The notes under the pieces are model-generated. The model was not told the DNA's origin and made no database searches. It worked only from the letters and a program-made list of their open reading frames with translations. A stretch of DNA of 64,000 bases from Nonomuraea dietziae (GTDB lineage Bacteria > Actinomycetota > Actinomycetes > Streptosporangiales > Streptosporangiaceae): contig NZ_JACIBV010000001.1 of assembly GCF_014195505.1 (NCBI RefSeq), positions 4,092,001 to 4,156,000 of the forward strand. Direction: 5' to 3'. The first letter of the stretch is position 1. Each line of letters opens with the position of its first letter. Positions 7,369-45,549 of the stretch are shown piece after piece. Made by a program: the position numbers and the translations under genes.

Positions 7369-7410
7369 GTGCCCCCTGTAGGATTCGAACCTACGCACCC
7401 GGCTCCGGAG
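7369..7410. repeat. attL, left copy of the 42-bp attachment repeat
   Basis: Identical over 42 bases to 24309-24350. It starts GTGCCCCCTGTAGG, ends GGCTCCGGAG, and differs at the next base on both sides. It corresponds to the tRNA-Arg 3' half from the anticodon loop through the T-arm to the acceptor 3' strand. It is not a functional tRNA because the 5' half is absent. Confidence 0.95.
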
Positions 7411-8066: not shown

Positions 8067-9287
8067 ATGCCATCGCTCAAAAAGGCACCTTTGCCGCCAG
8101 GACCAACCAAGACTTTTTTTGATAACCTACATGAACTTCACCTAAGGGCGGGCCAGCCAAGCACAAGAAAGATGGAAAGCGTCATCGGGAAAGGCGTTCT
8201 TTCGCATACAACTATCCATAAGACTTTCGCCGGAGATAAGGTCCCAGAGTGGGGACCAGTAGAACTAATAGTCGAATGCCTGGCAAGTATGTGTGGAGAT
8301 GTGCCAGATAAGACGACGTCGCGATTCAGAACGCTGTGGATTCAAGCCCGAGCCGGTCATGACAGTGATCTATATTTAGATGAGTCTATGCAGAAGGACG
8401 GCGAGACCACAGAGGAACCCGCAAGAGGGAAGCCGTCGGAATTTGGATCCGTCCCAACGCACTTTCGTCGCCTCGACGCAACCATAGGCGGCTTAAAGCC
8501 TGGCTCGTTGATAGCTATTATGAGCACGCCCTCTGAAGGTAAAAGCTGCCTGATTGTCGATTTAGCTAGAGCGGCATCAATGGCTGGCGTTGGAACGCTT
8601 CTATTTAGCTCTGAGATGTCTCGCGGAGAATATACGCTCAGAATGCTAGCATCGGAAGCACTCGTTGACATCACCAGTTTAAGGACTGGGCAACTAAGCG
8701 ACGAAGCATGGGCGCGCCTTGCTCGACGAATGTCCGAAGTTGCTGACGCACCTATGTATATTGACGCCCCTACCAATAAGTCCTGTAATCAACTTATCGA
8801 CGCCGTAAAGCGCAGCACAGAAAGACATAACATTGGACTAGTGCTTATCGACGGGCTTGGACTGCTAATTTCGCAAGAACATGCACAGTCGGGTGGCCAG
8901 CATGACGCAGGCAGCGCCCTAACCTCTCTAAAGACTCTCTCGACGCAACTCAACTTGCCTGTTGTGGTCACTGTAACTACAGAATATCCCCACGACGATC
9001 GCTACCACCTAGATCCCCCCACGAGCTGGGGGTTGCAACGAGCCGCCCGGCTGAGCGAATTGCGATACGGTCGTGAGATTTTTGAGATCGCCGACTTGGT
9101 TATCGCGATATATCGGCCAGACCACCGCGAGCCAGAAAGCCCTCGCGCAATGGAGGCCGACCTAGTTATCGCCAAGAATCGCTACGGGCCAACCGGCATT
9201 TCGACCGTGATTTTCCAGAATCAATTCATGCGCTTTACTAATATGCCGCCGATACCCACGGACAACCCGCCGTCCCTGCCCGCCTAA
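8067..9287 (+). CDS. HTH domain fused to a DnaB/KaiC-like RecA ATPase domain
   Basis: 406 residues. About residues 13-95 (TKTFFDNLHELHLRAGQPSTRKM, SHTTIHKTFAG, WGPVELIVECL) form the XRE-like helix-turn-helix segment that opens many multidomain actinobacterial signalling and NTPase proteins. Residues 125-392 form a DnaB C-terminal RecA fold: Walker A STPSEGKSC (153-161), LLFSSEMS, Walker B LVLIDG (258-263), ADLVIAIYRPD, and AKNRYGPTG (369-377) near the expected arginine finger. The DnaB N-terminal primase-binding domain is absent, so this is not the replicative helicase. The gene is clearly AT-richer than its neighbours and has at least four TTA leucine codons (in LYLDE, GGLKP, VDLAR, TSLRT), pointing to recent transfer and possible bldA control. 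Role unknown; regulator or defence ATPase are both possible. Confidence 0.75.
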   Translation: MPSLKKAPLPPGPTKTFFDNLHELHLRAGQPSTRKMESVIGKGVLSHTTIHKTFAGDKVPEWGPVELIVECLASMCGDVPDKTTSRFRTLWIQARAGHDSDLYLDESMQKDGETTEEPARGKPSEFGSVPTHFRRLDATIGGLKPGSLIAIMSTPSEGKSCLIVDLARAASMAGVGTLLFSSEMSRGEYTLRMLASEALVDITSLRTGQLSDEAWARLARRMSEVADAPMYIDAPTNKSCNQLIDAVKRSTERHNIGLVLIDGLGLLISQEHAQSGGQHDAGSALTSLKTLSTQLNLPVVVTVTTEYPHDDRYHLDPPTSWGLQRAARLSELRYGREIFEIADLVIAIYRPDHREPESPRAMEADLVIAKNRYGPTGISTVIFQNQFMRFTNMPPIPTDNPPSLPA

Positions 9288-9333: not shown

Positions 9334-10035
9334 TTAGTGCGCTTGTATAAGAGGGACAACCAACTCTTCCATGCTGGTCACCACGAGCTCAGCGCCAGCA
9401 TTGGCAAGTCGCTCAGCCTTTCCGGGCCGGTTTGCGTAGCCGACGGCAACGACCCCTGCATGTTTGCATGCCTCGACGTCAGTCACTGAGTCTCCAACCA
9501 GCAGGGCGAACGACGGATCGGCGGCCAGATGAATGAGCGCCTGGTCAAGGAGATGAGGATTCGGCTTCATGAGCGAGGGATCAGCTGTTGAGCGTGCCGA
9601 GACGTAGGCCACTCGGTCAGTGAGTCCACCCCGAGCGAGGAACGCCGTCACGGCAGCCACCGAGTTGTTGCTGACGATCCCCACGATCAGTCCCCTGTCG
9701 CGCGCCCGTTCTATGAGGTCCACCGCCCCTGGTGTCGGCCGCGCTGTACGGACCGCCTTCACCTCCAATTCGGTGAGTGTCCGCAGGGCAAGGCGGTTCA
9801 ACTCGCTACCGAGAGATGCACTGAACCGGAATACCTCCAAGGGGTCATCCGTCGCACGCACGGCAGGCGAGAGCACGGCGCCAGCCTGTTCCAAAGTGGC
9901 GCGAAGACTGGCCGCGACCGTCCGCGCCGGCAGTCCCGCGAAGATGTCGCACACGGGACCATCGAAGTCGAGGAGCAGGTATTGCACCTTGCCCATAACG
10001 GCCTGCACGGCTTCCGGCCCCGAGCGCGCCGTCAC
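9334..10035 (-). CDS. HAD-superfamily hydrolase (phosphatase-like)
   Basis: 233 residues from GTG 10035, which overlaps the stop of the GntR gene (GTGA) and has GGGAG upstream; ATG 9996 is an alternative. HAD motifs are all present: motif I LLLDFDGPVCD, motif II IVSNNS, motif III Lys in LMKPNP, motif IV LLVGDSVTDVEA. A helical cap lies between motifs I and II, as in phosphoglycolate-phosphatase-like enzymes. The family removes phosphate from small metabolites; the substrate here is unknown. The four-base overlap with the regulator implies coupled translation and a shared role, for example processing a ligand sensed by the GntR protein. Confidence 0.8.
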   Translation of the reverse strand: MTARSGPEAVQAVMGKVQYLLLDFDGPVCDIFAGLPARTVAASLRATLEQAGAVLSPAVRATDDPLEVFRFSASLGSELNRLALRTLTELEVKAVRTARPTPGAVDLIERARDRGLIVGIVSNNSVAAVTAFLARGGLTDRVAYVSARSTADPSLMKPNPHLLDQALIHLAADPSFALLVGDSVTDVEACKHAGVVAVGYANRPGKAERLANAGAELVVTSMEELVVPLIQAH

Positions 10036-10871
10036 GGCAACTCCCGAGCCACGTTGTCCCACACCGCGTCGAACCATGCGGACGACTGCTGCACGAACTG
10101 GGCTGACGTCGAATCCGGCCCATCGCTCACCGCGAAGTGGAACAGCTCGGTGTCCTTGCCCATCAGGTCAAACATCTCGACTGGCACCCCACCCAGGGCT
10201 ACGACATGCTCCGCGACAGCGTAGTAGCCGAAGAACGCCTCTTCTTTGTTGATGACATACAGCTTGAAGCGTGGCGGTTCCCCGCTGATCCGTACCTGAG
10301 CCGACGCCTGCGCCACCAGGCCCAGGTCTCGAAGCTCGTGAACGGATTCCACGATGGCCTGAGCATGCCGTGCCGTGATCTTTTCGGCTCGATCCCGGAA
10401 CAACGGCTCATCCTGTCCGTTGTCCACCCGGCACGGGAGAGACCAAGGGCGGCCTGTGTCTGGCAGAAGGAGCCGGATGGAGATGCGCTCAGGGATCAAG
10501 CGGCCAGCTCGGATGCTGTCGAGCGCTTCCTGCACTGCACCGTGCAGCGTCTCCCCGGAGAATCCGGCGAAGTCAATAGAGACCTCAGACCGCTTGAACG
10601 CCTCCTCAACGTGAGGGCGCAGGCCCACGGGGCGTGCGGTCTTCTCTCGGACGAACACGCCGCTCCCCTGTCGGGAGACGATCAGACCCTCTTCCCGGAG
10701 TTCCCGGATGGCCTGCTGGATCGTCTGCCGTGCCACACCGAAAGTCTTGGCGAGCTCCGGACCTGAAGGAAGCTTCTCCCCTGGCGCAAACTTCCTGGTC
10801 AGGATGGCCGCTCTGAGCTGCGTAGCTACCTGGAGATAGGGCGGACGAGGGTCATCCGGGTCGAGTCTCAT
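10032..10871 (-). CDS. GntR-type transcriptional regulator of the element
   Basis: 279 residues from ATG 10871 (MRLDPDDPRPPYLQVATQLR); the frame extends six codons further up. Residues 8-75 are a GntR winged helix (YLQVATQLRAAI, GEKLPSGPELAKTFGVARQTIQQAIRELREEGLI, GSGVFVRE). The C-terminal 180 residues do not look like the common UTRA or FCD ligand domains and contain RLLLPD and FKLYVINKEEAFFGYY. GntR-type repressors such as KorSA of pSAM2 control AICE excision and transfer, so this is a likely master switch. It faces away from the rest of the element across a 170-base intergenic region carrying three CTAG(S)CAAG boxes, and is coupled to the HAD gene. Confidence 0.85.
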   Translation of the reverse strand: MRLDPDDPRPPYLQVATQLRAAILTRKFAPGEKLPSGPELAKTFGVARQTIQQAIRELREEGLIVSRQGSGVFVREKTARPVGLRPHVEEAFKRSEVSIDFAGFSGETLHGAVQEALDSIRAGRLIPERISIRLLLPDTGRPWSLPCRVDNGQDEPLFRDRAEKITARHAQAIVESVHELRDLGLVAQASAQVRISGEPPRFKLYVINKEEAFFGYYAVAEHVVALGGVPVEMFDLMGKDTELFHFAVSDGPDSTSAQFVQQSSAWFDAVWDNVARELP

Positions 10872-10904
10872 GCCCCCAATGCTATCCATGCCTGAACAAC
10901 ATTC

Positions 10905-13763: not shown

Positions 13764-13954
13764 CGCACAGCCCGGATCATCCTCTCGGACCGTCCGCCCG
13801 CACCGACCCGACCATCCGACCGGACGGTGCACGGACCAACCGCGCATCGTCCTCCATCGCAACCGACCAGGGCGCGGCCTCAACTCCGCCAAGAACCGTG
13901 GCCGCGCCCTGCCACCCCGCAACCCGCAACGAGCACGAGGTGACCCCATCATGA
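13760..13954 (+). CDS. 64-residue linker ORF between spread and translocase genes
   Basis: GTG 13760 overlaps the spread gene stop, and its TGA lies in the ATGA start of the translocase gene. The product is polar, rich in Pro, Thr, Asp and Arg and probably disordered. Its first residues (THSPDHP...) resemble the start of the next protein (THNPHEP...). It may chiefly keep ribosomes moving into the translocase gene. Confidence 0.4.
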   Translation: MTHSPDHPLGPSARTDPTIRPDGARTNRASSSIATDQGAASTPPRTVAAPCHPATRNEHEVTPS

Positions 13955-16218
13955 CGCACAACCCGCACGAGCCCGCCGACCACTTCGACGACCCGGACCG
14001 GCGCCGGACGGACCACCCGGACGGACCAGCACACGACCGCACGGACGACAACGCGGACGGTCCCGGCGCGGAAGTCGTCCCCATCGAGTCCGCCCGCGCC
14101 GGACGGCACCCCTACCAGACCCCCGCGCCGGACGAGGCGCACCCGGACGAGGCGGACGGACCGCTGGTCTTGCACGGCCACGTCGTCCGCGTGGACCAGC
14201 CCGGCGGCGATGCCGATTGGCTCGCCCGCCTGGAGGTCCAGGCCCGCGAACGCCGCCCAATCGTGCCGCTGTGGCTGCGCTCCCGATCCGAGGCGGCCTC
14301 GGTCCTCAAGTGGGTCTCACGGCACTACCTGCACGTGACCGGCTACCACCTCACCCGCACCCCCAAGTACGGGCTCAAGCTGGCCGCCCGCGCGCCGCGC
14401 GGCGCCGTCTGGCTGGCCGGCGGCATGGTGCGCTGGACCTTCGACTGGGAGGGCGAGCCCGCCCGCCTGATCGCCGTCCAGAGGAACGACTACGACGCCT
14501 ACTTGAAGCTGTCCCGGCAGCGGGACGCCCGGGTACGGCTGCGCGTGCCCGTCGCCCTGGTGACCCTGGCCACGCTACTGCTGGCCGGCATCCTGATCGC
14601 TGCCAGCGCGCCGAGCATCGGCCAGTGGACCGCCCTGGGCGTCGCCCTCGCCGTCCTCGGCGTGTGCGGCAAGGTGCCGGACCGTCCGCTGCTCGACCGC
14701 GCCGTCCTCCGGCATGGTCTGGAGAAGCTCACCAGCGACATCGTGCTGCGCGCCCTCGGCTCTCTCGGCATCGCCGAGATCAACAAAGCGCTGTCCAAGG
14801 CGAGCAAGACCACTCAAGCCGACGCGATCCGGTTCAACGCGCCCATCATGCGCGACGGCCCCGGCTGGCGGGCGGACGTGGACCTGCCGCTCGGCGTGAC
14901 CGTCTCCGACGTCGTGGAGAAGCGTGACCGGCTGGCCTCCGGGCTGCGCCGCCCCCTCGGGTGTGTGTGGCCCGAGCCGATGCACGGCCAGCACCCCGGC
15001 CGCATGGTGCTGTGGGTCGGCGACACCGACATGAACACCGCCCGGCAACCGGCGTGGCCGCTGCGCCGTGGCGGGCAGGCCGACATCTTCAAGCCCATCC
15101 CGTTCGGCACCGACCAGCGCGGACGCCTGGTGGCGCTAACGCTGATGTTCAACAGCATGCTGATCGGCGCGATGCCGCGCGTCGGCAAGACCTTCTCCCT
15201 CAAACCACTGGTACTCGCGATGGGCCTGGACCCGATCGTGCAGGCCATGGTGTTCGAGCTGAAGGGCACCGGCGACCTGAGCTTCGCCGAGAAGTTCGCC
15301 CACGAGTACGCCTCCGGCCTGGATGACGAGACCATGCGACGCGCCCTGCTGGCGCTTCGAGCCCTGAAGGCGGAGCTGGTCAGCCACCGCTCGGGTGTCA
15401 TCGCCTCACTGCCCAAGGACCTGTGCCCGGAGAACAAGGTCACCCGAGCGCTGGCCGAACGCGTCTCGCTCGGGCTCCATCCGATCGGGCTGATCATCGA
15501 CGAGTGCCAAAACCTGTTCAGCCATCCGGCTTTCGGTGCCGAGGCCGGCGAGCTGGCCGAGTTCATCATCCGCGTCGGCCCCGCCATGGGCGTCTTCCTG
15601 ATCCTGGCTACCCAGCGCCCGGACAAGCGGTCCCTGCCCACCGGCATCGCCGCCAACGTCGGCATCCGGTTCAGCCTGCGGGTGATGGGCCAGACGGAGA
15701 ACGACATGATCCTCGGCACGTCGATGTACCAGAACGGCATCCGCGCCACCACCTTCACCGCCGAGGACAAGGGCATCGGCTACCTGGTCGGCGTGAAGAC
15801 CGACCCCCAGATCGTCAAGACGTTCTTCTTCGACGCACCCACCGCCGACCAGATCGCCGAACGCGCCCGTGACCTGCGCATCGCCGCCGGACGCCTGTCC
15901 GGGCACGCCGCCGGTCAGGCCCCCGAACACGAGGCCGCGCACGGCTTCGACCTGCTAAAAGACATCGCCAGCGTGGTGCCCACCGGCGAGGCCAAGGTGT
16001 GGTCGGAAACCGTCTGCGCCCGGCTGGCCGAGCTGCGGCCCGAGGTCTACACCGGCTGGGAGCCCGAACAGCTCGCCGCCGCTCTGGCCCCGCACGGCAT
16101 CGACACCATCCAGATCAGCCGTCGCATCGACGGCAAGCAGCTCAACCGGCGCGGCATCGACCGCTCCCACATCGCCGCCGTCATCACCGACCGTAACCAT
16201 AACCGGCCCACTGGATGA
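13951..16218 (+). CDS. TraB-type FtsK/SpoIIIE DNA translocase for conjugal transfer
   Basis: 755 residues. A disordered Asp/His/Arg-rich head of about 75 residues is followed by a domain ending in two adjacent membrane helices near residues 195-235 (VALVTLATLLLAGILIAAS, WTALGVALAVLGVCG). The FtsK motor carries Walker A MPRVGKTFS (about residue 408) and Walker B GLIIDECQN (about 513), with FELKGTGD and ILATQRPD also typical. The last 75 residues (LRPEVYTGWEPEQLAAALAPHG, DGKQLNRRGIDRSHI) look like the winged helix that reads clt repeats. TraB hexamers move double-stranded DNA between hyphae; no relaxase is needed. Candidate recognition repeats follow directly at 16230-16306. Confidence 0.92.
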   Translation: MTHNPHEPADHFDDPDRRRTDHPDGPAHDRTDDNADGPGAEVVPIESARAGRHPYQTPAPDEAHPDEADGPLVLHGHVVRVDQPGGDADWLARLEVQARERRPIVPLWLRSRSEAASVLKWVSRHYLHVTGYHLTRTPKYGLKLAARAPRGAVWLAGGMVRWTFDWEGEPARLIAVQRNDYDAYLKLSRQRDARVRLRVPVALVTLATLLLAGILIAASAPSIGQWTALGVALAVLGVCGKVPDRPLLDRAVLRHGLEKLTSDIVLRALGSLGIAEINKALSKASKTTQADAIRFNAPIMRDGPGWRADVDLPLGVTVSDVVEKRDRLASGLRRPLGCVWPEPMHGQHPGRMVLWVGDTDMNTARQPAWPLRRGGQADIFKPIPFGTDQRGRLVALTLMFNSMLIGAMPRVGKTFSLKPLVLAMGLDPIVQAMVFELKGTGDLSFAEKFAHEYASGLDDETMRRALLALRALKAELVSHRSGVIASLPKDLCPENKVTRALAERVSLGLHPIGLIIDECQNLFSHPAFGAEAGELAEFIIRVGPAMGVFLILATQRPDKRSLPTGIAANVGIRFSLRVMGQTENDMILGTSMYQNGIRATTFTAEDKGIGYLVGVKTDPQIVKTFFFDAPTADQIAERARDLRIAAGRLSGHAAGQAPEHEAAHGFDLLKDIASVVPTGEAKVWSETVCARLAELRPEVYTGWEPEQLAAALAPHGIDTIQISRRIDGKQLNRRGIDRSHIAAVITDRNHNRPTG

Positions 16219-16962: not shown

Positions 16963-17410
16963 ATGTCCGGCGAGACCACGATCACCATCATCGGCCAACC
17001 TGACCGCCGACCCCGAGATGCGCTACACGCAGACCGGTACGGCTGTCGCCAGCTTCACCATCGCCTCCAGTGCTCGGACCTACAACAAGCAGGTTGAGCA
17101 GTGGCAGGACAGCGAAGCCCTGTTCATGCGCTGTAGCGCGTGGCGCGACCTCGGCGAGCACATCGCCGAGTCGCTAACCCGAGGAACCCGAGTCATCGCC
17201 AGCGGACGCCTGCGGATGCACACCTACGAGACCAACGACGGCGACAAGCGAACCGTCTACGAGATGACCGTGGACGAGATCGGCCCGTCGCTGCGATTCG
17301 CCACCGCCAAACCGCAGAAGGCCGCACGCAACGCGCACAACGGCCACGGCGGCGGCACCGCCGACCCATGGGCCAGCACCGCCCCGACAGGCGATGAACC
17401 GCCGTTCTAG
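16963..17410 (+). pseudogene. ssb: Single-stranded DNA-binding protein gene with a one-base frameshift
   Basis: ATG 16963 follows GAAAGGAAG and gives MSGETTITIIG. One extra C at 16995/16996 then shifts the frame. The rest (NLTADPEMRYTQTGTAVASFTIA, SWRDLGEHIAESL, RVIASGRLRMHTYE) continues in the next phase to 17410. Joined, it is an intact OB-fold SSB of about 148 residues ending in DEPPF, the conserved acidic tip. The shifted reading stops near 17099. The only in-frame start in the main frame is ATG 17018, which would lose the first beta strand. It may be a recent mutation, a sequencing error, or tolerated because the host supplies SSB. SSB would serve element replication. Confidence 0.8.
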
Positions 17411-18639: not shown

Positions 18640-18787
18640 CAGGCCTCAGCCAGCAGGCGCGCGACACCGGCTCTTAGCGGCTTCAAGCTGAGCCGCCGGC
18701 TTACATCCCACGCACTGCTCGGCGCCACGCCGCAAGCCACTCGCCGAGGCCTCGCCCGCCACTCCCTATCTCGCGGAAGTGAAAATC

Positions 18788-19816
18788 ATGGGACGTCGAA
18801 TCTTCACGGCCGAACTGCTGCCCGGCATGCCGGACACCATCGGTCGCAAACCCGCCAAAGCCGAGCACGCCCCACCAGCCCGAACACTGGATGAGGCGAT
18901 CACCCGCAGCCACGACATCATCGCCGAAGCCCTTGACCGGTACCCGATCGTGGCCCGGCATGCACTGCTGTCCGGCGGCAACGACTCCACGCTAATGCTC
19001 CATCTCGTCCAGCCCTACCTGGACTCCTCTGAGCATGACGCGGTCGTACACGTCAACACCGGCATTGGCGTGGAGGAAACCCGCCAGCACGTGCGCGACG
19101 TGACCCGCGCGTGGAACCTGCCGCTGCGCGAGCTGCACCCGCGCGACTCCTACGATGACCTGGTTTTGGGACAGGTGATCGCTCGCAGCGGCAAGAACGC
19201 CGGAATCCGCCCAGTGTGGAAAGGCTTCCCCGGCCCAGCCGGACACGGCGTGATGTACCGCAGGCTCAAAGACGAACCGTTGCAACGCAACCGCGCCCAG
19301 GTCATCGGCACGCAAGGCCGTACCCGCAAGGTGCTGTATCTGGCGGGGATGCGCTGGGGGGAGTCCCAACGACGCATGCGCAACGCCGCCGAGATCGACC
19401 AAGAGGGCGGAATCGTCTGGTGCTCACCCCTGGTGCACTGGACCAACGCCCAGATGGCCGAATACCGACGCACCCGCCTCCTGCCCCAAAACGAGGTCTC
19501 CGCCCACCTACACATGTCCGGCGAATGCCTGTGCGGCGCCTTCGCCAAACCCGGAGAGCTAGACGAGATCGAGTTCTTCTACCCGCGCACCGCCTACCGC
19601 ATCCGCTCCCTGGAACAGCGCGTGAAAGCGGCCGGCATCCCGGCCTGCAAATGGGGACAAAAGCCCGTCGGCCAGTGCGCCCCCAAACCGGGCAGTATCG
19701 CCGGCCGCCTGTGCTCCTCCTGCCCAGCCCCCTTGCAAGGTCAGACCGACCTGATGGACATATGGGCCCAGCAGGGACTTCTCACCCAGCCCCTGCCGCA
19801 AGGTCGCGCGGCATGA
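18788..19816 (+). CDS. PP-loop ATPase of the PAPS reductase/DndC-like group
   Basis: 342 residues from ATG 18788 (GGAAG 9 bases upstream; GTG 18779 also possible). The PP-loop is LSGGNDST at 61-68. VHVNTGIGVEET (87-98) and LAGMRWGESQRR (186-197) are typical of the PAPS reductase superfamily. The last third carries Cys247, Cys249, Cys287, Cys297, Cys309 and Cys312 (GECLCGAF, ACKWG, CSSC), suited to an Fe-S cluster or zinc. The classic reductase C-terminus is absent, and there are no sulfate-assimilation genes nearby. The stop overlaps the prim-pol start (ATGA), so it is coupled to replication. Superfamily members adenylate a target before sulfur transfer, for example to DNA (DndC) or tRNA (TtcA). 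Its substrate here is unknown. Confidence 0.8.
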   Translation: MGRRIFTAELLPGMPDTIGRKPAKAEHAPPARTLDEAITRSHDIIAEALDRYPIVARHALLSGGNDSTLMLHLVQPYLDSSEHDAVVHVNTGIGVEETRQHVRDVTRAWNLPLRELHPRDSYDDLVLGQVIARSGKNAGIRPVWKGFPGPAGHGVMYRRLKDEPLQRNRAQVIGTQGRTRKVLYLAGMRWGESQRRMRNAAEIDQEGGIVWCSPLVHWTNAQMAEYRRTRLLPQNEVSAHLHMSGECLCGAFAKPGELDEIEFFYPRTAYRIRSLEQRVKAAGIPACKWGQKPVGQCAPKPGSIAGRLCSSCPAPLQGQTDLMDIWAQQGLLTQPLPQGRAA

Positions 19817-20709
19817 GCAGACCGCCACACGACACCACAGCCGCCGCTCTCAAAGCCGCCGCGCAAGGCTGGCCCGTCTTCCCTCTGGCCGTCGGCGACA
19901 AAGCGCCCCCGCGCGGCCTCACCGACTGGGAGAAGCGCGCCACCTGCAACCCCGACCAGATCCGCGCATGGTGGAAACGCGCCCCCTACAACATCGGCAT
20001 CGCCACCGGCCCGGCCGGCCTGGTGGTCATCGACCTGGACGTGCCCAAACCAGGCCAACACCCGCCCCGCCCGTGGGCCATGCCCGGCGTCCACGACGGC
20101 GCCGACGTCTTCGCGCTGATCTGCCAGCGTGCCGGCATCCCGCTGGAGTTGGAGACCTTCCAAGTCCGCACCCGGCGTGGCGGCCTGCACCTGTACTACA
20201 CCGCCCCGCCCTGCACCCGCATGCCCAGCACGAACGGCAGCGTGGGTTGGCTGATCGACACCCGCGCCTGGGGCGGCTACGTCGTCGGCCCCGGCAGCGT
20301 GGTTTCCCTGCTAGACGGCACCGGCCCCTACACCGTGCAGCACGGCATCGCGCCCGCCCCGCTGCCCCCCTCCCTGTTCAAGCTGCTTGAGTCCACACCG
20401 ATCCCGCCCAAGCGGCCCGTCCACGTCCCCATCCCCGACAGCCGCCATTCCGCCTATCTGCGCGCGGCTTTGGAGCGTGAGTTGTCGCACCTGGCCGCCG
20501 CCCTCCCTAGTCAGCGCAACCGCACTCTGTTCGGAACCGCCGCCGCCCTCGGCGAACTCGTCGCCGGCGGCGCCCTCCCCGAACAGGAGGTGAAAGAGCT
20601 GCTTGAACAGGGAGGGGGAGCGCTCGGACTGTCCCCCGGCGAAGTGGCCCGAACCGTCGCCTCCGGGCTGCGCCACGGCGCCCGCCGCCCTCGCCGCCTC
20701 ACCGCATAG
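19813..20709 (+). CDS. Bifunctional primase/polymerase (prim-pol) replication protein
   Basis: 298 residues, coupled to the PP-loop gene by ATGA. N-terminal prim-pol domain: AAAQGWPVFPL, then GIATGPAGLVVIDLDV with the catalytic D-x-D (Asp74, Asp76), TRRGGLHLYYTAP with the conserved His, and WLIDTRAWGGYVVGPGSV. The last 90 residues are helical (LSHLAAALPSQRNRTLFGTAAALGELVAGG), resembling the PriCT-like tail that links to the helicase part. The next gene supplies the ATPase. AICEs use RepSA, RepAM or prim-pol initiators; this one is of the prim-pol type. Confidence 0.88.
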   Translation: MSRPPHDTTAAALKAAAQGWPVFPLAVGDKAPPRGLTDWEKRATCNPDQIRAWWKRAPYNIGIATGPAGLVVIDLDVPKPGQHPPRPWAMPGVHDGADVFALICQRAGIPLELETFQVRTRRGGLHLYYTAPPCTRMPSTNGSVGWLIDTRAWGGYVVGPGSVVSLLDGTGPYTVQHGIAPAPLPPSLFKLLESTPIPPKRPVHVPIPDSRHSAYLRAALERELSHLAAALPSQRNRTLFGTAAALGELVAGGALPEQEVKELLEQGGGALGLSPGEVARTVASGLRHGARRPRRLTA

Positions 20710-20730: not shown

Positions 20731-21903
20731 ATGAGCCCTTCACCCAACGGCGCGGACCTTCTCGACCGGCTCCGCGCCTCTCTGACCCGGTATGTGATCC
20801 TGCCCAGTGCTGAGACCGCCGACGCGGTCACTCTGTGGATCGCCGCCACTCACGCCCAACCGGCGTGGGCGCATGCCCCACGGCTTGTCATCCGAGGCCC
20901 GGAGAAGCGGTGCGGCAAGTCCCGCCTACTCGACATCGTGGAGGCCACCTGTCACGAGCCGTTCATCACCGTCAACGCCACCAGCGCCGCCGTCTACCGC
21001 TCTATCACCGACGACCCGCCCACCATGCTCGTGGACGAGGCCGACACCATCTTCGGCCCCAAGGCTGACGGCAACGAAGACCTGCGCGGCCTGCTGAACG
21101 CCGGCCATCAGCGCAACCGGCCGGCCAAGCGCTACGACGTCAACACCAACTCCGTGCAGTCCATCCCGACCTTCGCCATGGCTGCGCTCGCCGGAATCGG
21201 TGCCATGCCCGACACCATCGAAGACCGCGCCGTCGTTGTCCGGATGCGGCGCCGCGCGCCCGGCGAGAGCGCCGCGCCCTACCGCCACCGCCGCGACCGC
21301 CTTCCACTACGCCGGCTCGCCGCCATGCTCGAACAGTGGCTACGCGCCGACCTGGCCACCCTGGAGCAGGCAGAACCCGCCATGCCCGTCGAAGACCGCG
21401 CCGCCGACACCTGGGAACCTCTCGTCATCGTCGCCGACCACGCCGGCGGCACCTGGCCCGAGCGCGCCCGCGCCGCCGCCGTGTCACTGACCGCCGAGGC
21501 CGACGACAACGGCCACACCTCCGCTCGAGTACGGCTGCTGGCCGCATGCCGGACCGCGTTCGGCCCCGACACCGCCCTGCCCACCGCCGTACTCCTGGAC
21601 AGACTCAGAGCCGACCCGGAAGGGGAGTGGAACGAACACGGCCCGGCCGGACTCACCGCGATGAAGCTCGGCACGATGCTGCGCGAGTACGACATCCGTT
21701 CGGCCAACATCCGCTTCTCCAACGGGCAGGCGAAGGGCTATCAACGGGCCGATTTCGCCGACGCTTGGGCGCGCTACTGCCCCTCCCTCGGACCCGTCCC
21801 CGAAGGCGACGTGGTCCCGTTCGAGAGGGGTAGCCGTCCCAGCCGTCCCAGCCTCGTCACCCCAGCTCAAAGCGGTACGGCTTCCGTCCCTGGGACGGCT
21901 TGA
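20731..21903 (+). CDS. DUF3631 AAA-type ATPase, replication helicase-like partner
   Basis: 390 residues from ATG 20731, with AAGGGGAGA upstream. Walker A is GPEKRCGKS (56-64) and Walker B is LVDEAD (100-105). Sensor-like NTNSVQSIPTFAMAALAGIGAMPDTIEDRAVVVRMRRR follows in short blocks, typical of DUF3631 proteins. The C-terminus (WNEHGPAGLTAMKLGTMLREYDIRS) fits the DUF3631 domain. It pairs with prim-pol upstream, together giving priming and unwinding. The last 75 bases of the gene lie inside an iteron and inverted-repeat array, so the C-terminal SRPSRPS segment is dictated by the repeats. Confidence 0.82.
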   Translation: MSPSPNGADLLDRLRASLTRYVILPSAETADAVTLWIAATHAQPAWAHAPRLVIRGPEKRCGKSRLLDIVEATCHEPFITVNATSAAVYRSITDDPPTMLVDEADTIFGPKADGNEDLRGLLNAGHQRNRPAKRYDVNTNSVQSIPTFAMAALAGIGAMPDTIEDRAVVVRMRRRAPGESAAPYRHRRDRLPLRRLAAMLEQWLRADLATLEQAEPAMPVEDRAADTWEPLVIVADHAGGTWPERARAAAVSLTAEADDNGHTSARVRLLAACRTAFGPDTALPTAVLLDRLRADPEGEWNEHGPAGLTAMKLGTMLREYDIRSANIRFSNGQAKGYQRADFADAWARYCPSLGPVPEGDVVPFERGSRPSRPSLVTPAQSGTASVPGTA

Positions 21904-21976
21904 GCCGTCCCACCAAAAAAGCCGTCCCAGGCTTGATCTGCACAAATGAGGCTGGGACGGCTGGGACGGCTACCCC
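21827..21976. repeat. Iteron array with 29-bp perfect inverted repeat, candidate replication origin or control site
   Basis: The nonamer GCCGTCCCA occurs four times on the plus strand (21833, 21842, 21904, 21921) and three times on the minus strand (21891, 21953, 21962) within 138 bases. The outer copies form a perfect 29-bp inverted repeat, 21827-21855 against 21948-21976. A CCGTCCC/GGGACGG dyad lies in between (21884-21898), with an AAAAAA run at 21915. The array covers the 3' end of the DUF3631 gene and the leader of xis. Iterons beside a Rep module usually mean an origin, but control of xis-int is equally possible. Confidence 0.7.
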
Positions 21977-22076: not shown

Positions 22077-22268
22077 ATGCCCAAGTCACAGGCCATGCTG
22101 TCCATCGCCGACGTCCTGGACGAACTCAACGTGCCCAAGTCCACCTTCTACCGGTGGCTGCACACGGGGCGCGGCCCGAAGTGCATCAAGCTCCCGAACG
22201 GCAAGGTGCGCATCCGGCGCGGCGACCTGGAGAGCTGGCTTGCCACCTTCGAGACCACCGCAGCGTAG
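22077..22268 (+). CDS. xis: AlpA/HTH_17-type excisionase
   Basis: 63 residues from ATG 22077, with GGAAGG about 10 bases upstream. The fold is the MerR-like winged helix of excisionases: LSIADVLDELNVPKSTFYRWLHTGRGPKCIKLPNGKVRIRRGDLESWL. Xis binds att DNA and pushes the integrase toward excision. It is directly upstream of int, 12 bases apart, so the two are expressed together. Confidence 0.9.
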   Translation: MPKSQAMLSIADVLDELNVPKSTFYRWLHTGRGPKCIKLPNGKVRIRRGDLESWLATFETTAA

Positions 22269-22280
22269 GGAAGGCCGCCC

Positions 22281-23651
22281 GTGCTGACTCACGACGTCGT
22301 GATCTGGAGCATCCGCAACCGCAAGGGACGCGCCAAGCCGTACCAGCTTCGGTGGAAGGTCGGCACGGAGCCGAAGTCCAAGGCGTTCCTCACCAAGGCG
22401 CTTGCCGACAACTTCCGCGCCGACCTACTCAAGGCCGCCAAGGCGGGCGAACTCTTCGACACGGAAACCGGCCTACCCGCCTCCATGGTGGCCGCCGACG
22501 CAGAAGAGATACCTATGAGCTGGTACGAGTTCGCCGCCAAATACACCGCCATGCGGTGGCCCGGCGCTGCGGCGAAGACCCGCGAGAGCATCGTGGACAG
22601 CCTGGCTGTGACCACGTTCGCGATGCTAGACGGCGAAGCGCTCAATCTGCCCCGTAAGGACATCCGCGCCGCCATGCAATGGGCGTTGATCCCTCGCGAG
22701 GATGGCGCGGCCGTACCCACTGCGCTGGCCTCGACCGTGCGCATTCTCCGAAAGGCCACGCTCCCGCTCGCCGACATGGCCGATCCCATCGTCGCGCGTC
22801 GAGTGAGCGATGCCCTCGGCCTCACGCTGGACAGGCGACCCGCCGCCTCGGACACCGTAGCTCGCCGCCGCCGAGGGTTGAACACAGCCCTGGAGTACGG
22901 CATTGACCTCGGCGAGCTCAAGGAAAACCCGCTCAAGCGGATCAAGCAGAAGAAGATAGCGAAGGACGACGCCGTAGATCGACGTGCCGTCGTTAACCCA
23001 GAGCAGGCGCGGGAACTGCTTACCGCCGTGTCATACGTCGGGAGCTGGCACCGTGCCCGAGGCCGCCGCTTGATGGCCTTCTACGCCACGCTGTACTTCG
23101 CGGGTGTCCGGCCTGCCGAGGCCGTAGGACTACGACGAGACGACTGTCACCTGCCCGAAGAAGGATGGGGCCTGCTCACCCTGACCAAGACCCGTCCTAG
23201 CAGCGGAAAGCAGTGGACGGACACCGGCACCGTTCACGACCTGCGCGGCTTGAAGCAGCGCGACACAAGCGCCGTCCGTGAGGTCCCCATCCCGCCCGAG
23301 CTGGTTACCATCCTTCGCGCCCACCTGGAGGAGTTCGGCACCGCACCTGATGGACGCATGTTTCGCAATGAGCGCGGCGGCGTGCTCGGTGCTTCCACCT
23401 ACTCGCGAGCGTGGGAGGAGGCGCGCCGACTCGCTTTCACCCCTCAACAGGTGGCCTCTCCGTTGGCCGGACGACCCTACGACCTGCGACACGCCGCCCT
23501 GTCTACCTGGCTCAACGCCGGAGTGGACGCGACCGAAGTAGCGTCCCGCGCGGGCAACAGCGTGGAGGTACTTCTCAAGCGCTATGCGAAATGCCTCGAT
23601 GGCCGACAAAAACAGAACAATTCGAAGATAGAGGCAGCGCTCGAACGCTGA
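22281..23651 (+). CDS. int: Tyrosine-type site-specific integrase
   Basis: 456 residues from GTG 22281 (GGGAAGG upstream). N-terminal arm-binding part (RNRKGRAKPYQLRWKVG), core-binding SAM-like domain, then the catalytic domain from about 235. Arg277 (FAGVRPAEAVGLR), Arg403 (YDLRHAALSTWL) and the nucleophile Tyr435 (LLKRYAKCL) are in place. The His box reads PYDLRH and the later His is Asn426 (AGNSVEVLL), both common in actinobacterial element integrases. It acts on the 42-bp core in tRNA-Arg(CCG) and lies about 660 bases from attR. Confidence 0.95.
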   Translation: MLTHDVVIWSIRNRKGRAKPYQLRWKVGTEPKSKAFLTKALADNFRADLLKAAKAGELFDTETGLPASMVAADAEEIPMSWYEFAAKYTAMRWPGAAAKTRESIVDSLAVTTFAMLDGEALNLPRKDIRAAMQWALIPREDGAAVPTALASTVRILRKATLPLADMADPIVARRVSDALGLTLDRRPAASDTVARRRRGLNTALEYGIDLGELKENPLKRIKQKKIAKDDAVDRRAVVNPEQARELLTAVSYVGSWHRARGRRLMAFYATLYFAGVRPAEAVGLRRDDCHLPEEGWGLLTLTKTRPSSGKQWTDTGTVHDLRGLKQRDTSAVREVPIPPELVTILRAHLEEFGTAPDGRMFRNERGGVLGASTYSRAWEEARRLAFTPQQVASPLAGRPYDLRHAALSTWLNAGVDATEVASRAGNSVEVLLKRYAKCLDGRQKQNNSKIEAALER

Positions 23652-24308: not shown

Positions 24309-24350
24309 GTGCCCCCTGTAGGATTCGAACCTACGCACCCGGCTCCGGAG
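24309..24350. repeat. attR, right copy of the 42-bp attachment repeat, inside the tRNA gene
   Basis: Identical to 7369-7410 and covering the tRNA-Arg 3' half including the anticodon loop. The element thus rebuilds a functional tRNA gene on integration. Confidence 0.95.
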
Positions 24351-41139: not shown

Positions 41140-44100
41140 ATGAACGGCCAACGCCGGCTGGCCGGACGCTATCGGCTGCTGGACACCCTGGGCAACGGAT
41201 CGCTCTGGCTCGCCGCCGACGATCTCATGCGCCGCGACGTCGGAATCAGGGAGGTACGGCTCCCGCCCGACCCCGCCGCCCGCAGGGACCTGTGCGGCGC
41301 GGTCGGCCGCGAGGTCGGACTCGTCACAGGGCTCGGCCACGCCTCGATCGAGGCCGTCCACGAGGTGATCGTCGAGGACGGGCGCCCCTGGCTGGTCGTC
41401 GACCTCCCCCAGGGCCCCTCCCTCGAGCAGACGGTCCTCGAACGCCGCCCACTCCCTCCCGTGCAGGTCGCCCGCATCGCGGTGCACCTCATCTCGGCGC
41501 TGCGCGCGGTGCACGGGGTGGGGGTCGTGCACGGCGACATCCAGCCGTCCACCGTCGTCCTCACGCCCACGGGACGAGCCGTACTGACGGGCTTCGGTGT
41601 CTCCACCCCGTTCCGCCCCACGTCGGTGGGACCTGCGGCCGACCTGTGGTCGCTGGCCGCGACGCTGCACTTCGGACTCGAGGGCCGTCCTCCTGAGCAG
41701 GGCCGGCCGATCGGGGGACCGCTCGGCCCCCTCCTGACCGACATGCTCCACCCCGACCCCTCGGCCCGCCCCTCGGCCGAAGCGGTCGCCGGTGCCTTCG
41801 CCGATCTGGCCCGCGCCACCGCCTCACCCTCGACCACCCCTTCCCCGGCCGGATCCCCCCACGAGGAGCCCCCGCCGGCGGAACCCCACGCCTGGGAGCC
41901 GCCCCGCTCCGACCCCGAGACGAGTGGCACCTCTACCACGGGCCCGTCCGGCACGCCGCTGTCCTGGGAGCCGCTACCGGCCCCCGACCCGCCGACGTTC
42001 ACCCCCGCCCGCCCGGTCGCCACCCCCGCGTCCGGCCACCGGCCGCCCGCGGCGCCCGCGAACGACGAGCCTGAGGGCGAACACTCCTCGGAGACCACCC
42101 CCGAGCACACGCTGCCCTCCGCCACGCCCGCGCAGCCCGACCTCTCGGACACCGAGTCCACCCAGCGAACCCCCCGCTCCACGCCGCTTCCCGACGACCT
42201 CGCCCCCACCGAGGAAGCCGCAGCCCCCGGGGACGCGAACCCCACCCCCGGTCCCGGTCCCGACTCGGATCCTCCTTCCCACGTCGATTCCGGCTCCGAT
42301 CCGCATTCCGGCGTCGGCTCCACCCCCGGTTCCGGCGAAGGCTCTCATTCCGACCTCGGCTCTACCGCCGGTTCCAACTCAGGCCCCCATTCCGACCTCG
42401 GCTCCACCCCCGGTTCCGACTCAGGCCCTCATTCCTCAGGCTCTCATTCCGGCCTCGGCTTCGGGCCTGCCGCCGACCCGACGGTGCCCGGCGTAGTTCC
42501 GCACCTCGCGGAGGGCCCTCCCACCGATCCGGGGATCATCCGGTCGTATCCCGACGACACACCGGACGACGGCGCGCCCCAGACGCACTGGACCCCTCCC
42601 GCTGATCCCGAGGCGACTCAGGGGTTCCCTCTTCCCGCTCCCGTCGAGCCCGCCCCCGCCCCCTGGGAGGCTCCTCCACCTCCAGCGGGATGGGACACCC
42701 CACCCTCTCAGCCGATGTGGGACACCCAGCCCCCTCAGCCAACCGGAGACACCCCGCCTTCCCAGGCGACGTGGGACATCCAGCCCCCCGAGGCGACCTG
42801 GGACGCCCGGCACCCTGGAACGACCCGGGATGAGACAGCTGAGGCCACCTGGGACGCCCGACCCACTCGCACCACCCAGGACACCGAGACAGCAGAGGCC
42901 ACCTGGGACGCCCGACCCACTCGCACCACCCGGGACACCGAGACAGCCGAAGCCACCTGGGACGCCCGACCCACTCGCACCACCCGGGACACCGAGACAG
43001 CCGAAGCCACCTGGGACGCCCGACCCACTGAACACACCCGGGACACCGAGACAGCTGAGGCGACCTGGGAGGCCCCTCGGTCCTCGACGACCTCGGGCAC
43101 CCCGCACCCGGCGGCCTGGGAACCCCCGACCGCCTCGGATGCGCCACCGCACCCGGCGGCCTGGCAGCCTCCGGCGACCTGGGATGCCCCACCCTCGCCG
43201 CCGACCTGGGACGCTCCGCCAACGCCGGCCGCCTGGGACGCTCCGCCAACGCCGGCCGCCTGGGACGCTCCGCCAACGCCGGCCGCCTGGGACGCCTCAG
43301 ACCCGGCAGCGACGGGCCATGGTGGCGCCGTGCCAGGCCCGGGGTCCGCGATGACTGGATCTGACGGGCCGCCTTGGACGCCCGGAGATGAACCATCAGG
43401 TCCTACGGGTATGCCGCCGGGGCCCGGAGACCCCGTGTACGGGCCTCCCGGCGTGCAGCCGGGGCCCGCAGGTCCCATGTCAGGGCCCGTCGGTCCCGGA
43501 GGTCCCATGTCCGGGCCTGCGGGCATGCCCCCGGGGCCCGGGGGTCCGGGGTACGGGGGTCCGGGGTACGGGGGTCCGGGGTACGGGCCCGTCGGTGTGC
43601 AGCCGGGGTATGGGGGTCCGGTGCCGGGTCCTGCGGGTATGCCGCCGGGACCTGGGATGGCCTATCCCGGTGCTGGAGGTGTTCCCGCCGAGGGTCAGAG
43701 CGAGCGGCCTTCGTTGCTTCGCCGGGTTCTGCGTCGTGGCGGCAAGCAGCAGGCCGCCCAGCCGGGACCGCAGGCCGCACCGCCTCCCGGCACACCACCC
43801 GGTCCGTGGGGGCCAGCGCCCGCCGCGCCGCCCATGGCCGGAACCGCATGGCCTCATGGCGCCCCCCCGCCCCCCGGCACGCCCCCGGCCCCTGGCCCGT
43901 TCCCACCTCCCGGCATGCCGCCGACCCCCGACATGCCGTCGGCCCCCGGAATGCCGCCAGGCGACGGACTCCCGTCAGGCTCCGTGATGCCGCCAGGCGA
44001 CGGAATGCCGTCGGGACCCGCGATGCCGCCAGGCGTCGGGATGCCGTCAGGGCCTGTGCTGCCACAGGACGTCGGGATGCCGTCGGGTCCCGTGATGCCA

Positions 44101-45549
44101 CCGCCTCCGGGGATGACGGACGTCCCAGGAGCGCCGCCATCTGCGGGGATGCCGCCGGGATCCGCTGTGCCGCCTCCTGGGATGCCTCCGGGCCCTGGGA
44201 TGCCGCCGCACGGGCCCGGCATGCCGCCTGCTCCCGGGGGCCCGGCCGATGCCTCCCTGCCCGCCGCCCCGCCGTGGGAACCGCAGCCGGGCGGCCTCGT
44301 ACCGCCCTGGGAACCCCAGCCGAGCGGCCCCACGTCCTGGGAACCCCAGCAGCCGGGCGACCCCACACCATCCTGGGAACCGCAGCAGCCGGGCGGCCCC
44401 ATGTCCTGGGAACCTCAAGCGGGCCCCACCTCGTGGGAGCCCCAGCAGCAGGGCGCCCCCACGCCATGGGAGCCGCACTCGGGCGGCGCTTGGGAGTCCG
44501 AGGGTGGGGTCGGGGCAGGTCCCGAAGGCGCGTCGCAGGCCGCGTGGGGGCTCCAGTCCTCCAGTGGGCCTCAGCAACCATGGGCGCCGCCCCCCGCCTC
44601 CGCCCCCCAGCCGTGGGGGCCTCCGCAGGCAGACGGCGGATGGACGCCCGCCCCTGAGGGCCCACCACCCGCCCCGACCGGTGCACCACCTGCTCAGGAC
44701 GCGCAACCCGGTGGGTGGATGCCGCCCGTCGGTCCGTCCGGCCCTTGGGGCCCGCCCCCCGAGAACCGGGGAGGCCCGGGACCGGACGGCCAGGCACCGC
44801 AGCCATGGGCAGCCTCCCCGGACGCACCTCCAGCACAGGCACCGCAGCCATGGGCGCCGGGCCGGGAACAGCCAGAGCAGCCGTGGATGCCGGGCTCCGA
44901 CAGCTGGGGACCGCCGCCGAGCCGGGCGGCGCAGTCGTGGGAACCCGCGATCGACGCCGCGCCCCCTGTGCTGGCCGCTGGTCACGACGAGCCCGAGCCG
45001 CCCCCCATCGTGGAGACGACGGCTCCCTTCAGACGGCCCGCCTACAGCGGTCCCCTCGTGCTCACCGAAGAGCAGGAGACGGCGGCGGCCCCCAGGGCCG
45101 AGCGTCCGCCGCGGACGCTGGACCAGCTGCTGGCCGAGGACGGCCTGCTGACGCCGGAGGCCGCCGCCCGGCTCGGACTGGCGGTGCTCGACCGCCTCGC
45201 GGCCGTGCACGGCGTGGGCGGCCACCACGGCGACCTGCGTCCCGGAAGCATCCTGGTCGGCGGTGACGATCAGGTGCGGCTGGCCGATCCGTCCCCCGCG
45301 CCTGGGCTGTCTCCCTACACCGCGCCCGAGGGCGGCATCGGACCGGCGGCCGACCTGTGGTCGCTGGGCGCCACGCTGTTCACGGCGGTCGAAGGACGTC
45401 CTCCCGCGCCCGGCGCGCCGCTGACGAGGGCGGGCGTGCTGGCTCCCGTGCTGTTCCGCCTGCTGTCGGGGGTCCCCGCGCAACGACTCACGGCCGACGC
45501 GCTGCGTCTGGACCTGCGGACGATCGCAGGCGAGCCGAGCCGTCCGTGA
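41140..45549 (+). CDS. Giant protein with two degenerate kinase domains flanking a repetitive Pro/Trp-rich region
   Basis: 1469 residues from ATG 41140 (GGAG 8 bases upstream). Residues 8-235 form a kinase fold without key residues: IREVRLP replaces the VAIK lysine, HGDIQP replaces HRDxKxxN, and TGFGVS replaces DFG. A central 1080 residues are low complexity: WEP/WDA boxes, four 18-residue units (42841-43056), three 9-residue units (43207-43287), GPGYG runs and MPPG/MPSGP runs. Residues 1324-1469 repeat a kinase C-lobe (GHHGDLRPGSILVG, VRLADPSPA, APEGGIGPAADLWSLGATLFTAVEGRPP), also without DFG. Both halves share PAADLWSL, so a duplication is likely. Probable scaffold or regulator; no transmembrane segment is visible. 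Confidence 0.7.
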   Translation: MNGQRRLAGRYRLLDTLGNGSLWLAADDLMRRDVGIREVRLPPDPAARRDLCGAVGREVGLVTGLGHASIEAVHEVIVEDGRPWLVVDLPQGPSLEQTVLERRPLPPVQVARIAVHLISALRAVHGVGVVHGDIQPSTVVLTPTGRAVLTGFGVSTPFRPTSVGPAADLWSLAATLHFGLEGRPPEQGRPIGGPLGPLLTDMLHPDPSARPSAEAVAGAFADLARATASPSTTPSPAGSPHEEPPPAEPHAWEPPRSDPETSGTSTTGPSGTPLSWEPLPAPDPPTFTPARPVATPASGHRPPAAPANDEPEGEHSSETTPEHTLPSATPAQPDLSDTESTQRTPRSTPLPDDLAPTEEAAAPGDANPTPGPGPDSDPPSHVDSGSDPHSGVGSTPGSGEGSHSDLGSTAGSNSGPHSDLGSTPGSDSGPHSSGSHSGLGFGPAADPTVPGVVPHLAEGPPTDPGIIRSYPDDTPDDGAPQTHWTPPADPEATQGFPLPAPVEPAPAPWEAPPPPAGWDTPPSQPMWDTQPPQPTGDTPPSQATWDIQPPEATWDARHPGTTRDETAEATWDARPTRTTQDTETAEATWDARPTRTTRDTETAEATWDARPTRTTRDTETAEATWDARPTEHTRDTETAEATWEAPRSSTTSGTPHPAAWEPPTASDAPPHPAAWQPPATWDAPPSPPTWDAPPTPAAWDAPPTPAAWDAPPTPAAWDASDPAATGHGGAVPGPGSAMTGSDGPPWTPGDEPSGPTGMPPGPGDPVYGPPGVQPGPAGPMSGPVGPGGPMSGPAGMPPGPGGPGYGGPGYGGPGYGPVGVQPGYGGPVPGPAGMPPGPGMAYPGAGGVPAEGQSERPSLLRRVLRRGGKQQAAQPGPQAAPPPGTPPGPWGPAPAAPPMAGTAWPHGAPPPPGTPPAPGPFPPPGMPPTPDMPSAPGMPPGDGLPSGSVMPPGDGMPSGPAMPPGVGMPSGPVLPQDVGMPSGPVMPPPPGMTDVPGAPPSAGMPPGSAVPPPGMPPGPGMPPHGPGMPPAPGGPADASLPAAPPWEPQPGGLVPPWEPQPSGPTSWEPQQPGDPTPSWEPQQPGGPMSWEPQAGPTSWEPQQQGAPTPWEPHSGGAWESEGGVGAGPEGASQAAWGLQSSSGPQQPWAPPPASAPQPWGPPQADGGWTPAPEGPPPAPTGAPPAQDAQPGGWMPPVGPSGPWGPPPENRGGPGPDGQAPQPWAASPDAPPAQAPQPWAPGREQPEQPWMPGSDSWGPPPSRAAQSWEPAIDAAPPVLAAGHDEPEPPPIVETTAPFRRPAYSGPLVLTEEQETAAAPRAERPPRTLDQLLAEDGLLTPEAAARLGLAVLDRLAAVHGVGGHHGDLRPGSILVGGDDQVRLADPSPAPGLSPYTAPEGGIGPAADLWSLGATLFTAVEGRPPAPGAPLTRAGVLAPVLFRLLSGVPAQRLTADALRLDLRTIAGEPSRP
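42841..43056 (+). repeat. Four tandem 54-bp in-frame repeats
   Basis: Units at 42841, 42895, 42949 and 43003, near-identical at DNA level (GAGGCCACCTGGGACGCCCG start). Each encodes 18 residues, EATWDARPTRTTRDTETA-like. DNA identity indicates recent slippage expansion. Confidence 0.9.
43207..43287 (+). repeat. Three identical 27-bp in-frame repeats
   Basis: TGGGACGCTCCGCCAACGCC followed by GGCCGCC, at 43207, 43234 and 43261, encoding WDAPPTPAA three times with no base differences. Recent expansion in the same low-complexity core. Confidence 0.9.

Follow-up and report, generated by a model that had tools for sequence, protein, structure and literature searches.

What is a dense cluster of repeats doing at the very end of a replication gene? 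The question is raised by a 150-bp segment of the Nonomuraea dietziae genome, in which copies of one nonamer straddle the 3′ end of a gene for a DUF3631 protein, and for which a sequence-only reading had proposed either a replication origin or a switch controlling xis-int. We analysed the segment within a 64-kb window, the whole stretch of DNA under study, and in related loci. From these comparisons we judge that the array is probably where replication begins in a 17-kb actinomycete integrative and conjugative element (AICE), and that the iterons are probably bound by the initiator which the element itself encodes, DUF3631/RepAM. Of the two proposals it is the origin that gains support, because the array is family-wide, its word varies together with residues of DUF3631 presumed to contact DNA, and the predicted fold of this protein resembles that of self-loading initiator helicases.

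A nested iteron array within an integrative element

Judged by borders and gene content, the array belongs to a 17-kb AICE. A 42-bp direct repeat forms the left att site (7369–7410, + strand) and recurs as the right att site (24309–24350, + strand), where it constitutes the 3′ end of tRNA-Arg(CCG). Encoded on the + strand between these sites are an FtsK/SpoIIIE-like transfer protein (13951–16218; phrog_1358, E = 5.9e-21), which matched PHROGs only and showed no Pfam domain, the SSB of the element (17018–17410; PF00436, E = 4.9e-21), a Prim-Pol that is its presumed primase (19816–20709; PF09250, E = 3.8e-41), the RepAM-type DUF3631 initiator (20731–21903; PF12307, E = 3.5e-66), an Xis-like excisionase (22077–22268; phrog_66, E = 6.2e-9) and a tyrosine integrase (22281–23651; phrog_1, E = 8.2e-29). 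Together with the att repeats, these genes give the layout of an AICE: a tyrosine integrase, an excisionase and an att direct repeat at a tRNA gene, combined with an FtsK/SpoIIIE-type transfer protein and a replication module of the element's own.

Other features of the window were recorded alongside. A lone protein with a DnaB-type helicase C-terminal domain (8067–9287; PF03796, E = 4.1e-47) adjoins the left att site and lies inside the att bounds, which would give the element another helicase in addition to DUF3631. A phosphoadenosine phosphosulfate reductase-like protein (18779–19816) is encoded between SSB and Prim-Pol, within the replication region, and on the minus strand the genes for a HAD-type hydrolase and a GntR regulator overlap (9334–10889); a GntR gene opposite the main operon is also present in the circular Streptomyces relatives L112 and L113. 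Long imperfect tandem repeats, with periods of 18–72 bp that are mostly multiples of 3, occupy positions 42260–44490.

All seven iterons of the sequence-only reading were located, and in both orientations: exact copies of GCCGTCCCA start at 21833, 21842, 21904 and 21921 on the + strand and at 21891, 21953 and 21962 on the − strand. They are packed into 138 bp, where about 0.004 copies are due and seven are seen, so the cluster is not a product of chance. Outside the array the 64-kb window holds a single copy (35502), and shuffled windows gave an expectation of 1.82 copies, none of 100 shuffles exceeding 6. The exact tandem pair of GCCGTCCCA is unique to the array in the 10.2-Mb genome. The array has a GC content of 66%, and nothing else in the element approaches its repeat density (score 35, against no more than 4 for any other cluster).

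The 29-bp inverted repeat proved to be perfect, with no mismatch between its left arm (21827–21855, + strand), which contains iterons 1 and 2, and its right arm (21948–21976, − strand), which contains iterons 9 and 10. If anything, the array had been understated. The entire 150 bp (21827–21976, no strand assigned) form a single near-palindrome with 76% identity to its own reverse complement, and three degenerate nonamers (21851–21859, 21873–21881 and 21944–21952) accompany the seven exact ones. Comparison with relatives resolves these into ten nonamer positions that make up five nested inverted pairs, 1–10, 2–9, 3–8, 4–7 and 5–6. On the outside, iterons 1 and 2 are GCCGTCCCA in tandem (21833–21850, + strand) and face iterons 9 and 10 (21953–21970, − strand). 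Pair 3–8 is degenerate in the window's array, with iteron 3 reading GCCTCGTCA (21851–21859, + strand) and iteron 8 lying at 21944–21952 (− strand); in TAA-type Nonomuraea and several Pseudonocardiaceae loci the position of iteron 3 is taken by a complete iteron. The next pair joins the degenerate iteron 4, GCCGTACCG (21873–21881, − strand), to iteron 7 (21921–21929, + strand). Between pairs 3–8 and 4–7 sits a conserved non-iteron motif, with a left copy of consensus GCAGGTCAG (21862–21870, + strand) and a right copy of consensus CTGACC[AT]GC (21933–21941, + strand). Iterons 5 (−) and 6 (+) form the innermost palindrome (21891–21912), in whose loop the stop codon of DUF3631 (21901–21903) is found, and the array thus does run across the end of the gene.

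Conservation of the array among related elements

We compared the nonamer across 80 loci that encode a DUF3631 homologue of 66–86% identity, mainly from Streptosporangiaceae, Thermomonosporaceae and Pseudonocardiaceae. Approximately 77 of the 80 have an array where the DUF3631 gene ends, and extra iteron copies come mostly as inverted pairs added near the centre. Among the exceptions, L063 ends at a contig edge, and L074 (4900–5600) and L079 carry homologous rep-xis-int modules with no array; the latter two are possibly elements that are no longer able to replicate. The array also occurs in more distant homologues, including those of Streptomyces with other words, and two deposited circular Streptomyces plasmids (13.5 and 14.3 kb) show the same layout with a quite different word, TCCGCTACC. 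A search of viral contigs returned no relative, and a phage search gave one distant match only, at 37% identity.

The position of the DUF3631 stop codon relative to the array varies: in Nonomuraea it is internal, in seven loci (L048, L049, L058, L060, L067, L068 and L080) it precedes the array, and in many Pseudonocardiaceae it follows, making the array coding throughout. These shifting positions point to selection on the DNA, with the encoded peptide as a by-product. The earlier idea that the array constrains the C-terminal residues of the protein is therefore better turned round, the DNA dictating the tail: the frame differs between relatives, and residues 357–390, the tail encoded by the array, are predicted to be disordered (pLDDT under 50).

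Iteron words co-vary with DUF3631 residues

Each locus has one word, shared by all of its main copies, which change in concert; the word takes the form CCG plus variable bases, and the alleles were CCGTCCC, CCGTACC, CCGTWAC, CCGCTACC, CCGCTACA, CCGCCAC, CCGCAAC and CCGGAAC. These alleles track three residues in the C-terminal winged helix of DUF3631, pairing residue 325 with base 4, residue 326 with base 5 and residue 328 with base 8. In the window's protein the proposed specificity residues, identified by this co-variation, are A325, N326 and R328 (codons 325–328, 21703–21714, + strand).

In the largest set, of 188 loci, N326 accompanied CCGTCCC in 72 of 73 loci and T326 accompanied CCGTACC in 30 of 30; when residue 326 was set against CCC or ACC in 92 loci, the single exception was L061, which has a decayed array. 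Arginine at 325 went with C at base 4 in 72 of 73 loci and any other residue with T in 107 of 110 (188 loci). Lysine at 328 was found only with a final C (36/36) and arginine with other final bases (149 loci), the 3 exceptions having weak arrays. Within the CCGCTAC group the K/R split at 328 was perfect (33 and 18), a split that reflects only three supported independent switches. Residue 326 was the best DUF3631 column, holding 0.92 of the CCC/ACC allele information, and the next column held 0.62. On a tree built without the residue 326 loop, CCC and ACC words interchanged at least 17 times, with 8 well-supported independent pairs; in these, residue 326 switched concordantly 7.8 times on average and in the opposite direction never. 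The best control columns held 0.37 of the allele information in Prim-Pol, 0.50 in Xis (40 loci) and 0.70 in Int, for which only 38 loci were available.

The codon for residue 326 lies approximately 120 bp upstream of the array, so residue and array can travel together by recombination and be co-inherited. Such linkage leaves unexplained why the signal is concentrated in residues 325–328. We strongly infer from the sequences that the DUF3631 protein binds the iterons.

Binding by DUF3631 would serve regulation equally well, and the array could be an operator through which DUF3631 or another element protein controls its own operon or xis-int while replication starts elsewhere. The genes are suitably placed, as xis-int lies downstream of the array in nearly every locus and, in 73 loci, the integrase gene starts 81–505 bp downstream in the same direction. 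However, L074 keeps the rep-xis-int order without an array, five nested pairs of sites far exceed what an operator needs, and no other repeat cluster in the element could be the origin. Moreover, the nonamer agrees more poorly with Xis and Prim-Pol than with DUF3631, which leaves the xis-int switch, the second proposal of the sequence-only reading, unsupported. We consider an operator with a separate origin unlikely, although, given the position of xis-int, the array may regulate these genes as a second role.

TraB proteins bind short repeats through a winged helix, and the element has an FtsK-like gene, which would fit a clt-like transfer locus bound by an FtsK/TraB-type protein. Co-variation of the word with DUF3631 speaks against such a locus, as does plasmid L112, in which a separate repeat cluster adjoins traB, and of the alternatives considered here we give this one the least credence. 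Further repeat clusters occur in both L112 (around 8701 and 4826) and L113 (around 11801 and 5051), one of them being that next to traB; they are possibly transfer sites.

Incompatibility, sought in the form of different words within one genome, drew no support, with 5 of 11 and 5 of 19 pairs sharing a word, near expectation. Two Streptomyces groups were also observed. One (L116, L249, L252, L255, L260 and L262) has mixed CCGTCCC/CCGTCTT words together with N326, and in the single array of this word group submitted to folding no hairpin-like structure emerged (z = −0.4). The other (L117, L229, L231, L232, L237, L241 and L243) uses the word GACTCGTC/GACGAGTC and has RRF, not IRF, in the specificity strand; this group may extend the residue-to-base code.

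A predicted helicase fold for the DUF3631 initiator

DUF3631 corresponds to RepAM, which is responsible for the autonomous replication of the AICE pMEA300, is occasionally partnered by a Prim-Pol and has been predicted to act by rolling circle (PMC3218068). We modelled the window's protein with a mean pLDDT of 84.8. Its AAA+ domain is closest to MCM helicases (Z about 16), and the top Foldseek ranks included PriRep1 of SaPI5 (7pds), African swine fever PrimPol, ORC subunits, the helicase region of phage NrS-1 and MCM. The C-terminal 95 residues (pLDDT 89.5) matched mostly winged-helix proteins among their best hits, with middling scores (Z 5.6–7.4) that assign this domain to a fold class and not to a family; in the model, residues 325–328 make up the strand running into the wing. 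No sequence relatedness to the solved structures was detectable, and PHROGs gave no match. The DUF3631 protein is thus predicted, from its model, to be an AAA+ helicase of the MCM/SaPI-PriRep1 type with a C-terminal DNA-binding domain.

An origin of the kind proposed here contradicts the published rolling-circle prediction, under which the array would be a double-strand origin nicked by RepAM. That prediction came with pC194-like nick sites (PMC3218068). Hairpins are common at rolling-circle origins, and the window does contain CTTGAT at 21932–21937. This hexamer is not conserved, however, and relatives read CTTGACC or CCTGACC instead. In the protein, Pfam found no rolling-circle initiator domain, and only one histidine stands among the positions that are invariant or nearly so in 69 homologues. 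No HxH motif is therefore conserved, and an initiator with HUH motif and catalytic tyrosine was not recognised. With a ring helicase fold of the MCM/PriRep1 AAA+ type predicted in its place, we regard rolling-circle initiation at the array as very unlikely.

Pairing between the arms

Folded as a single strand, the 150 bp are predicted to form one nested hairpin of high stability (z = −12.3 as DNA and −15.9 as RNA). We examined pairing in 46 aligned arrays, with shuffles and slid partners as controls. The nested structure keeps 86.6% of its pairs, and cells in which both members of a pair had changed numbered 132, versus 55 in shuffled arrays and at most 29 with slid partners; part of the 132 arises because all copies change together. 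In TAA-type loci, where copies differ within an array, inverted partners shared their core in 13 of 23 cases versus 30 of 184 for other copies, and it is mainly in these loci that the excess agreement between partners is seen. A binding array alone would not require this agreement; on sequence grounds, it hints that pairing is selected for or that template switching occurs from one arm to the other.

The very stable RNA fold and the compensatory changes would also suit an RNA element, that is, a terminator, an attenuator or a structured end of the rep transcript, and the minus strand does present a stem followed by a T-run. The orientation is wrong for a Rho-independent terminator, because stem and T-run point to the minus strand, where there is no gene. 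The A-run that the sequence-only reading placed next to the replication genes is real (21914–21919, + strand), but it is not conserved, since fewer than half of the loci (22 of 46) have at least four A. There was no Rfam match, the whole array is translated in some loci, and all direct copies change with the protein residues, a change that pairing alone does not need. An RNA element is accordingly a highly improbable account, more so than rolling-circle initiation.

A candidate origin and its relation to known replicons

We infer origin function, the loading of two helicase rings and priming by Prim-Pol from the sequence patterns, and the following scheme would accommodate them. DUF3631, as an AAA+ helicase of the MCM/D5 class, would read the 9-bp word through its C-terminal winged helix, with conserved residues contacting the constant CCG and residues 325, 326 and 328 contacting bases 4, 5 and 8, which vary between words. 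The inverted arms would load two helicase rings facing in opposite directions, the DNA between the arms would be opened, and Prim-Pol and SSB would start synthesis. Opening may be aided by hairpin extrusion, which we invoke because there is no AT-rich stretch: the most AT-rich 30 bp near the arrays have a median GC content of 50%, and no AT-rich region flanked by iterons was found. We speculate that extrusion replaces AT-rich unwinding. A broader proposal, that the GC-rich origin opens by a hairpin or cruciform whose stems are the initiator sites and that the code linking 325 to base 4, 326 to base 5 and 328 to base 8 yields many mutually exclusive pairs, is in line with the agreement of inverted partners in TAA-type loci; we think it possible but doubtful.

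The closest parallel is the rep/ori system of SaPIs, whose Rep helicases recognise, through a C-terminal domain, iteron origins directly downstream of their own gene (PMC7581432). As in SaPIs, copies of a short repeat here either follow the gene for an initiator helicase directly or occupy its end, and the predicted fold combines an AAA+ helicase with a C-terminal DNA-binding domain. The two systems would share an AEP primase, a self-loading AAA+ helicase, an iteron origin downstream of the helicase gene and, probably, C-terminal recognition. They differ in that the iterons described here form one nested near-palindrome that overlaps the gene end and lacks an AT-rich stretch, and in that a residue-to-base code can be read from natural variants. 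The SCCmec Cch2 module likewise combines a helicase with repeats downstream of its gene, and Cch2 bound these direct repeats specifically; it has only three short iterons, however, and deletion of its inverted repeats was immaterial to binding (PMC7581432). The replicons of the pMEA300 type share DUF3631, the element architecture, hosts among the Actinomycetota and the occasional Prim-Pol partner (PMC3218068), whereas RepAM is there a predicted rolling-circle initiator and here fold and origin anatomy point to an MCM/SaPI-like one.

No mention of the residue-to-base code was found in the literature searched, whose scope stopped short of the original pMEA300 replication papers. Clustered iterons near an initiator gene are a likeness to iteron plasmids; in the classical examples the iterons are arranged mostly as direct repeats next to an AT-rich region, and the Rep protein is not known to be a helicase. 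Reportedly, the paper on RepAM and pMEA300 and an AICE review by te Poele and co-workers may have assigned the pMEA300 origin to repAM or its vicinity, and part of the origin account, its location most of all, may be known already.

If the proposed origin is correct, a whole class of mobile elements in antibiotic-producing actinomycetes would gain a concrete origin, and RepAM/DUF3631 would move from the supposed rolling-circle initiators to the MCM/SaPI-like helicase initiators. The family would then supply approximately 190 natural initiator–origin pairs with at least 8 word types, in which origin choice and its evolution could be tested directly through exchange of a single residue and a single base (N326T, with CCGTCCCA as the CCC-type and CCGTACCA as the ACC-type word). 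It would also offer orthogonal replicons for actinomycetes.
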